DNA from: Trichocoleus desertorum NBK24
Lineage (GTDB): Bacteria; Cyanobacteriota; Cyanobacteriia; FACHB-46
NCBI RefSeq assembly: GCF_030409055.1
Contig: NZ_CP116619.1
Location: forward strand, 1,397,628-1,461,627
Direction of reading: 5' to 3'
Length of the DNA: 64,000 nucleotides
The position numbers and the translations under genes were made by a program. Shown piece after piece: positions 19,999-23,029 of the stretch. The notes beneath the pieces are model-generated. The model worked only from the letters and a program-made list of their open reading frames with translations. It ran no database searches and was not told where the DNA came from. Position 1 is the stretch's first letter. The number at the start of each line of letters is the position of its first letter.

Positions 19999-20048
19999 AA
20001 TTGCCAGCAACTATAGATAATGCGTTGTATAGAAGCCGAGGGTTGGCA

Positions 20049-21278
20049 GTGAAGTACGATAAATCTTTTCTTCCAGAAGTTTTTTCAGAAGTTCTTTCAG
20101 GCGTGGGGGCATACTTTAGGGCTTACCGTCGAGCCTTGGGCGCACTGGTTTTGGTCATCCCGCTCTTGCTCACTGCTTGCGGTGTGCCTAGAATTTCTGC
20201 TGAATCCAGGCTGTTTTTAGACCGCTCCCTAGAGTTTCTGGGGGAGTATCAACTGCCGCAGTCTACGTACAACAACACCCCAGTTGGAGCGTTATCAGCC
20301 CTGACTTATGATCGGCAGCGCGATCGCTTTTATGCTGTTTCTAATGATTCTAGTCAGCAGGCACCTGCCAGGTTTTACACCTTCAAGCTCAGTGTTGATG
20401 CAAGTGATCCGGAAGCTCCCAAAATTCAGCGACTAGAAGTTGAGCAAGTCACCACCCTAAAACAGGACAACGGCCAACCCTATCCACCTAATACGATCGC
20501 TCCTGCGGGCATTGGTCTGTCTCCACAAAGTTCTGTTTTCATTTCAAGCGACAACTTAGATGCGGCGGGGACCACACCTTTAGTCGGCGAGTTTGATCTA
20601 GCCACTGGCAAGTTACGGCAACGGCTACCGATCCCGAATCGGTTCTTACCCAATACGGGTACACTAGAAGCACCTGTCGGAGTCCAAGCACATGGAGCCT
20701 TTTCAGCCCTTACCCTTAGCGCTCCTAGTGTCAGCCCTGCTAACTTAGAACCGTTTCGCATCTTCACTGCCACTCAATCAGCCTTGGTACAAGACCGCGA
20801 AACAGAGAACCAAACCGCCAATAATCGCTTACTCCACTACCTAATTGGAGATGGCCCCCCGGTACTGATTGCCGAGCATGTGTATCCCATCAAAGCTCCT
20901 CCCGTGGGCGCGATCGCCCCTCAACTCACAGAACTCATGGTTCTCGATCAAGGCGGGCATTTCTTGAGCTTGGAAGAAACCCTCGATGACACCAACCCCT
21001 CCGCCGAGATTTTTCAACTGGCAATGGGCAGTGCTACAGACACTTCAAGTTTGCCCAGCCTCCAAGGGGCAGAAGGAATTCAACCAATTCGTAAGCGATC
21101 GCTGTTGGATTTGAATAAGCTCGGAATTACGCTAGGCGACTTAGCGGGGATGACTTTGGGGCCACAGTTACCAGACGGTTCTCAGAGTCTATTGCTGGTC
21201 AGCAACAATCATCTGCAAGCTGAACAGCCAACTCAGGTTCTCTTGTTTCGCCTCACAAATTCTGGCCAAGCAAGCTGA
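20049..21278 (+). CDS. Esterase-like/phytase-family lipoprotein
   Basis: The mature part resembles proteins carrying the phytase-associated esterase-like domain (PF13449 type), beta-propeller-like secreted proteins of uncertain activity. Features include YQLPQSTYNNTPVGALSALTYD, FYAVSNDSSQQAPARFYTF and the C-terminal LLLVSNNHLQAEQPTQVLLFRL. An N-terminal hydrophobic stretch ends in LLLTAC, a lipobox, so the protein is probably lipid-anchored outside the cytoplasm. The start is uncertain: GTG 20049 has a GAGG site, GTG 20103 would give a more typical 26-residue signal, and TTG 20001 abuts the terminator. It lies upstream of phoD on the same strand, in line with a role in phosphate scavenging, which is inference. 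Confidence 0.75.
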   Translation: MKYDKSFLPEVFSEVLSGVGAYFRAYRRALGALVLVIPLLLTACGVPRISAESRLFLDRSLEFLGEYQLPQSTYNNTPVGALSALTYDRQRDRFYAVSNDSSQQAPARFYTFKLSVDASDPEAPKIQRLEVEQVTTLKQDNGQPYPPNTIAPAGIGLSPQSSVFISSDNLDAAGTTPLVGEFDLATGKLRQRLPIPNRFLPNTGTLEAPVGVQAHGAFSALTLSAPSVSPANLEPFRIFTATQSALVQDRETENQTANNRLLHYLIGDGPPVLIAEHVYPIKAPPVGAIAPQLTELMVLDQGGHFLSLEETLDDTNPSAEIFQLAMGSATDTSSLPSLQGAEGIQPIRKRSLLDLNKLGITLGDLAGMTLGPQLPDGSQSLLLVSNNHLQAEQPTQVLLFRLTNSGQAS

Positions 21279-21315
21279 CATTTATTTAGATCAGTTCCAT
21301 CACCAATTAATTTGA

Positions 21316-21345
21316 CTTTAATAACCTCTTGAAGCCTCGTTAATG
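21316..21345 (+). promoter_or_regulatory. Weak Pho-box-like direct repeats upstream of phoD
   Basis: Three TTAA-containing or related octamers recur at about 11-base spacing (CTTTAATA, TCTTGAAG, CGTTAATG). Cyanobacterial Pho boxes are direct repeats of a YTTAAYYW-like octamer with short spacers. The match is partial, so this is only a candidate PhoB-binding site. Confidence 0.25.
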
Positions 21346-21467
21346 CCCTACTGATAGGTTATTTTTAGGCGAGCAGACGCTTGCAGGGCTATTGGTCGGA
21401 TCATTACTTGGCACTGCTGAAAAAGTTCTGCTTTTAGCTAGGGTGAGAAGAGGAAAAGATAAATGCT

Positions 21468-23029
21468 TTGCAGTTTGACCGTTTGCTGTCCGCTCGTCTG
21501 AAGCGGCGTAGCTTAATCATTGGGGCGGGCGCTTTAGCAGGACTCGCGATCGCCAGTCAGACCAATCGAGTCATTGCAACTCCTCGCTTCACGGACTACC
21601 CCTTCAGCCTGGGTGTGGCCTCTGGCGATCCGTTGCCTACCAGTGTGGTGCTATGGACCAGGCTTGCTCCTGATCCCCTCAATGGCGGTGGCATGATCCC
21701 CAACCCTGTACCGATCCAATGGCAGGTTGCAACCGATGCCACGATGCGACAAGTAGTGCGACGAGGCACCGCAACGGCCACCCCGGAGCTAGCCCACTCC
21801 GTACGTGTAGTGGTGGAAGGCTTGCAACCCAATCGCTGGTACTGGTACCAATTCCAAGTCGGCAATGAAATTAGTCCCATTGGCCGCACTCGGACTGCTC
21901 CTGCTTTAGGCGATCGCCTCGCTCGTTTTCGCTTTGCCTTTGCTTCCTGTCAAGACTGGCAAAACGGCTATTACACGGCTTACAAACATTTGGCGGCAGA
22001 GGATCTGGATCTAGTCCTGCACTTAGGCGACTACATCTATGAATACGGCCCCGAAGCAGGCAAACCCAGACAACACAACGGTCCTGAAATTGTCAGCCTA
22101 GAAGATTACCGCAACCGCCACGCCCTCTACAAAACTGACCCTAACCTTCAAGCGGCTCATGCCAACTTTCCTTGGATCGTCACCTGGGATGACCATGAAG
22201 TTGACAACAACTACGCCGATGCCATTCCCGAAGACGGCCAAAGCCAAAAGCGTTTCTGAGCCGTCGAGCCAATGCGTACCGAGCGTACTACGAGCACATG
22301 CCTTTACGTCCCGGTGCGTTTCCCCAAGGGTCAGACTTACAGCTCTATCGCCGCTTTGCTTTTGGAAACTTGCTGGAATTGAACGTGCTGGATACTCGGC
22401 AATATCGCACTGACCAGCCTTGCGGAGATGAACTCAAGCCTCGCTGTTCAGAAGCTTTTGTGCCTCAAGCAACCCTTACAGGCACCAAGCAGGAAAGATG
22501 GCTCTTCCGAAATTTAACCCGTTCGCGATCGCGCTGGAATGTCTTGGCTCAGCAAGTGATGTTCGCTCAGTTCGACTTTGACCCACGACCGACCTCCGAG
22601 CTGTTCAATATGGATCAGTGGGATGGTTATGTGGCAGCTCGGCAGCGTTTGCTCCAGTTTCTCCAAAGTCGCCAACCTAGCAATCCAATTGTCCTCACGG
22701 GTGACATTCACTCTAGCTGGGTTCACGACTTAAAGGCCGATTTTAACAATCCTAATTCAGCCACCCTCGGTACTGAATTTGTCGGCACCTCTATCACTTC
22801 TGATTTCCCTCAAGCCTTTATTGCGCCTGTCACCGCCGCCTTGCCTGCTAACCCTCACACCAAGTTTTTTGATGGAGCCTTCCGGGGCTACGTCCGCTGC
22901 GAGGTGACACCCCAGCAATGGCAAACTGATTTCCGCGTTGTGTCTACTATTCTGGCTCCTGATGCTCCTGTCAGTACGCTGGCGAGTTTTGTCATACCTG
23001 ATGGACAGCCCGGAGCCCAGCGGATTTAA
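21468..23029 (+). pseudogene. phoD: Alkaline phosphatase PhoD, interrupted by a single-base frameshift
   Basis: PhoD is a Tat-exported phosphodiesterase/alkaline phosphatase that releases phosphate outside the cell. The first frame (21468-22259, TTG start, AGGA site upstream) has a twin-arginine signal ([10 protein letters not shown]), [38 protein letters not shown] and [11 protein letters not shown], then stops at TGA 22257. The second frame, one base back, resumes exactly with [19 protein letters not shown] and runs to 23029, with LTGDIHSSWVHDL carrying late metal ligands. Everything needed for a PhoD of about 520 residues is present except one base near 22253-22256 (TTTCTGAGC, where TTTCCTGAGC would keep the frame). 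It could be a true mutation, a sequencing error or, less likely, P-site slippage. Confidence 0.88.

Follow-up and report, generated by a model that had tools for sequence, protein, structure and literature searches.

The window, the whole stretch of 64,000 nucleotides that was analysed (G000:C1:1397628-1461627), comes from a genome (G000) of one contig and 5.46 Mb, with cyanobacteria as relatives. It contains, at 21468-23029 on the forward strand, a phoD gene that is split by a TGA codon, after which the protein continues in the -1 frame (Table 1). The first frame ends in ...QSQKRF. The -1 frame reads TTT (22253), CTG, AGC, CGT and CGA, and runs to a stop that ends at 23029. PhoD is a secreted phosphate-scavenging enzyme. 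By profile matches, the 5' part covers the PhoD_N domain and the beginning of the PhoD catalytic domain. It also contains the motif KRRSLIIG, which we take to be a Tat-like signal. The neighbours of phoD are a phytase-like gene (PF13449) on one side and a CpeT/CpcT-family gene (PF06206) on the other. The latter is followed by a gene with UDP-sulfoquinovose synthase as the best NCBIfam match, at 465.6 bits and thus below the cut-off of 575.

Table 1. Features of the split phoD gene and its 5' region (window coordinates)
Feature	Position	Strand	Description or basis
ATA in place of in-frame ATG start	21459..21461	+	comparison with sister and relatives
Out-of-frame ATG, 12-codon frame ending at TGA	21463..21501	+	sequence inspection
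phoD 5' part	21468..22259	+	263 aa from TTG, ends at TGA; open frame and profile matches
Place of missing base	22247..22248	+	extra C in sister (L005)
Out-of-frame codons AAG CGT TTC (K R F) ahead of stop	22248..22256	+	alignment with L005
phoD 3' part	22253..23029	+	-1 frame, FLSRRANAY... to TAA; first ATG/GTG/TTG at 22298
Premature stop TGA	22257..22259	+	met only through the shift; original frame reads CTG AGC

Both parts match PhoD in the profile comparisons. A profile search matched positions 1-116 of PF09423 to part one and positions 110-343 to part two, and a second comparison gave PF16655 and PF09423 1-112 in part one and PF09423 131-343 in part two. The NF058638 profile is covered from 13 to 280 by one part and from 295 to 535 by the other, and each fragment scores below the cut-off of 1000 bits, which is set for the whole protein. 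When joined, the two parts align with B. subtilis PhoD (2yeq) over residues 39-519 at an E-value of 3.6e-187, so that the PhoD assignment is not due to chance. The PhoD_N and PhoD catalytic domains are present along the whole protein and across the break, and the reading frame is interrupted by the TGA. An earlier note, made from the window alone, had described just such a frameshift, with one frame ending at the TGA after QKRF and the -1 frame resuming with FLSRRANAY, and the PhoD matches of both parts bear it out.

In another genome of the same genus (G001, locus L005), phoD is found in one frame, with 87% DNA identity over positions 1-1562 of the 1562-base query. The base-by-base alignment with this sister gene has a sole gap near the break, and identifies the missing base as a C. 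The sister reads CCAACAAGCG where the window reads CCAAAAGCG, with AACAA in the former and AAAA in the latter. The earlier note had suggested that the C was lost from TTC CTG AGC. The alignment instead puts the loss about 10 bases upstream, and the stretch TTTCTGAGC (22253-22261) highlighted in the note is where the shifted frame hits the stop, not the site of the deletion. The abutment of the two halves, described as perfect, is real in part and in part a matter of chance. The sister has QSQQAFLSRR, whereas the window frames join as QSQKRF and FLSRR. K and R thus replace Q and A of the sister, and the F is encoded by an off-frame TTC that matches by luck.

The break is private to G000. One frame is kept across the junction in all 91 phoD copies that were collected from other genomes by homology searches. 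A single one of them (L088, Brasilonema sp. CT11) has a premature stop, which lies elsewhere, near codon 399 in a match of 529 codons. The survey of the class (threshold E <= 1e-60, matches counted by hand from the table) found a phoD match in 57 of 388 genomes, with G000 alone being split, and all 74 matches found in the other 56 genomes are free of stops. Intact at the junction in 91 of 91 copies and without a stop in 74 of 74 matches, the orthologues lack the lesion, as expected of a frameshifted pseudogene. In Fischerella muscicola PCC 7414 (L032), the N-terminal signal region of phoD appears shifted in frame when compared with L030 and L029, and its 5' end may have another private lesion or an error. 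A search of plasmids returned 19 records at 60-80% identity, none of them covering 80% of the phoD query. Among the titles and abstract openings returned by a literature search, there was no report of a broken phoD from this genome.

The third genus member, G002, has no true phoD, only a weak match to a protein of about 800 amino acids that is common to all three genus members, which suggests that phoD is dispensable in the genus. In G000, a weak PhoD-domain match is located in an 824-codon frame (L003, G000:C1:1880317-1880781, reverse strand), and similar weak matches occur in 800-codon frames of both other genus members.

PMC6713934 lists nine active-site residues for 2YEQ, namely C124, D151, Y152, D209, D210, N215, N216, D380 and H382. 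According to the alignment, all nine of these listed residues are conserved in the joined protein, seven in residues 161-248 and two at positions 413 and 415. Since the break falls between these two groups, neither fragment has the whole site as defined by that list. The export signal is present in the first fragment only. Two PhoX-like places were found in G000, and a search of the genome for PhoA gave no match.

Both halves of phoD are under strong purifying selection. In the comparison of G000 with G001, the first half has a dN/dS of 0.034 and the second one of 0.060, both inside the range of 0.013 to 0.100 spanned by the eight stretches for which it was computed. As there is no sign of decay in dN/dS, the lesion is, on this scale, either very recent or not real; a lesion of very recent date would give such values, and an intact gene containing a sequence error would do so equally well. 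The suggestion of the earlier note that the change is recent is supported, because the break is private to G000 and both halves are still constrained.

Taken together, phoD of G000 has likely been inactivated in the recent past, and would be a young pseudogene or null allele. The one C would truly be missing in the living cell. Translation would pass through three wrong codons to the TGA, and the resulting 263-residue fragment would have the export signal along with seven of the metal ligands, but not the Asp-His pair of the second half. The second half would have no export signal, and would require a fresh start at ATG 22298. A working enzyme would not be expected from the split gene, and phoD would be inactive. 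The loss would probably be tolerated, perhaps through compensation by the two remaining PhoX-like proteins.

The 5' end of the gene may carry a second lesion. In the sister and most relatives, an ATG precedes residue 1 by three codons, and G000 has ATA in this place. Of 111 distinct phoD copies, 109 have an ATG in frame close to the 5' end (E <= 1e-100, copies with identical core sequence merged; the filter for less than 50% identity or an alignment start beyond residue 60 lists no row as excluded). The two others are L201, which has other start codons, and L203, for which the alignment begins at residue 59. The first candidate start codons in G000 are ATA 21459 and TTG 21468. The TTG could be a usable start, and the out-of-frame ATG between them may compete for initiation. 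The change from ATG to ATA is possibly a hint of decay. In a control with 425 ortholog pairs (best single match per ORF, at least 75% identity and at least 60% coverage, phoD itself excluded), 9 of the 325 pairs with a 5' ATG in the sister have none in G000. In view of this base rate, the ATA change is supportive, but not decisive. The phytase-like gene directly upstream of phoD (window 20001-21278) also lacks a 5' in-frame ATG that the sister has; its pair appears in the control at G000 1417634-1418890. Between this gene and phoD, G000 and the sister share a strongly conserved block at 21306-21344, ATTAATTTGACTTTAATAACCTCTTGAAGCCTCGTTAAT, in a spacer that has diverged around it. The block may be a Pho box, judging by eye from its tandem repeats.

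The main rival to a null allele is a sequencing or assembly error, which is possible, though rather unlikely; the earlier note had also raised an assembly error. In that case the living strain would have an intact phoD, with TTG 21468 or a different codon as its start, and the consensus would have dropped one C. The full constraint on both halves, the retention of all nine ligands and the involvement of a single base are in favor of an error, and a good finished genome could well contain about one such event in the 498 kb of coding sequence that were compared. However, the lost base is outside a homopolymer in the sister (AACAA), the assembly forms a single contig in which other frame breaks are few, and the change at the start codon is a multi-base difference that is unexplained by one dropped base.

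The quality of the assembly can be judged from a comparison of 800 kb each from G000 and G001. Among the 455 sister ORFs (498 kb), it flagged three with a broken frame in G000, and in the reverse direction, three of 465. Of the 455 matched sister ORFs, 448 are covered to at least 80% in one frame. The two flagged cases other than phoD are a 26-residue 5' stretch, where the real start seems by inspection to be inside the break, and a partial match of 70% identity. In the compared stretch, only phoD is clearly broken in mid-gene. Internal in-frame stops were recorded in 7 rows with G000 as the target and in 4 with G001 as the target. A weaker screen with 80-aa ORFs (2 of 214 flagged in G000, 1 of 217 in G001) is superseded by the comparison of 455 ORFs. 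With frame breaks this rare in G000, widespread indels in the assembly were rejected as an explanation.

Recoding is very unlikely. A -1 slip, from AAG to AAA at A_AAG or from TTC to TTT with the TGA in the A site, would restore some full-length PhoD. By inspection, both slips retain acceptable tRNA pairing, and either would lead to a protein of the sister's length at the junction, with one or two residues changed. Yet the site is private to one genome, and a conserved slippery site is absent from the orthologues, as all compared copies (91 copies, 74 matches) read one frame there. The site, which reads C_CAA_AAG on inspection, is not a canonical X_XXY_YYZ heptamer. For the RNA downstream, none of the three stretches compared is better folded than shuffled sequence (z -0.46, -1.33 and 0.11), in a test of structures without pseudoknots. 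The sole run of A is four long, and a four-A run is too short for efficient transcriptional slippage. Recoding was therefore rejected as unsupported by conservation and folding. The same applies to the proposal of the earlier note, a P-site slip from TTC to TTT at the stop, which is chemically possible but has against it the private site, the lack of structure and the loss of the base further upstream. We are just as doubtful that leaky -1 slippage at A_AAG or T_TTC_TGA yields a little full-length PhoD and cushions a fresh frameshift. Least credible of all is a split enzyme reassembled from two separately translated fragments, for although the domain sequence is kept in both and an ATG is available at 22298, the export signal is on the first fragment only, the arrangement occurs in none of the 74 matches from other genomes, and a start at 22298 would omit the stretch from the break to 22297 from both products.

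For annotation, a working PhoD should be credited to G000 only once the base has been checked. If phoD is broken, the phosphate scavenging of G000 would rest on the PhoX-like proteins. The finding is an unremarkable instance, either of gene inactivation in the recent past or of a residual consensus error.

With respect to known systems, the gene is a PhoD (PF09423 / PF16655, NF058638; B. subtilis 2yeq) in sequence, domain order and the nine listed metal ligands. Unlike a typical PhoD gene, it is split by a one-base deletion and is without the conserved ATG start and a single open frame. Genes with a programmed -1 frameshift, for example dnaX, are similar in having the second half in the -1 frame. 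They differ in that phoD of G000 has no conserved slippery heptamer or structure, and in that its relatives read one frame. A further parallel is with strain-specific frameshifted pseudogenes, the ordinary kind in bacteria, with which it shares a private single-base deletion and a premature stop. With a sequence that is otherwise constrained and other phosphatases left in the genome, nothing sets phoD of G000 apart from them.
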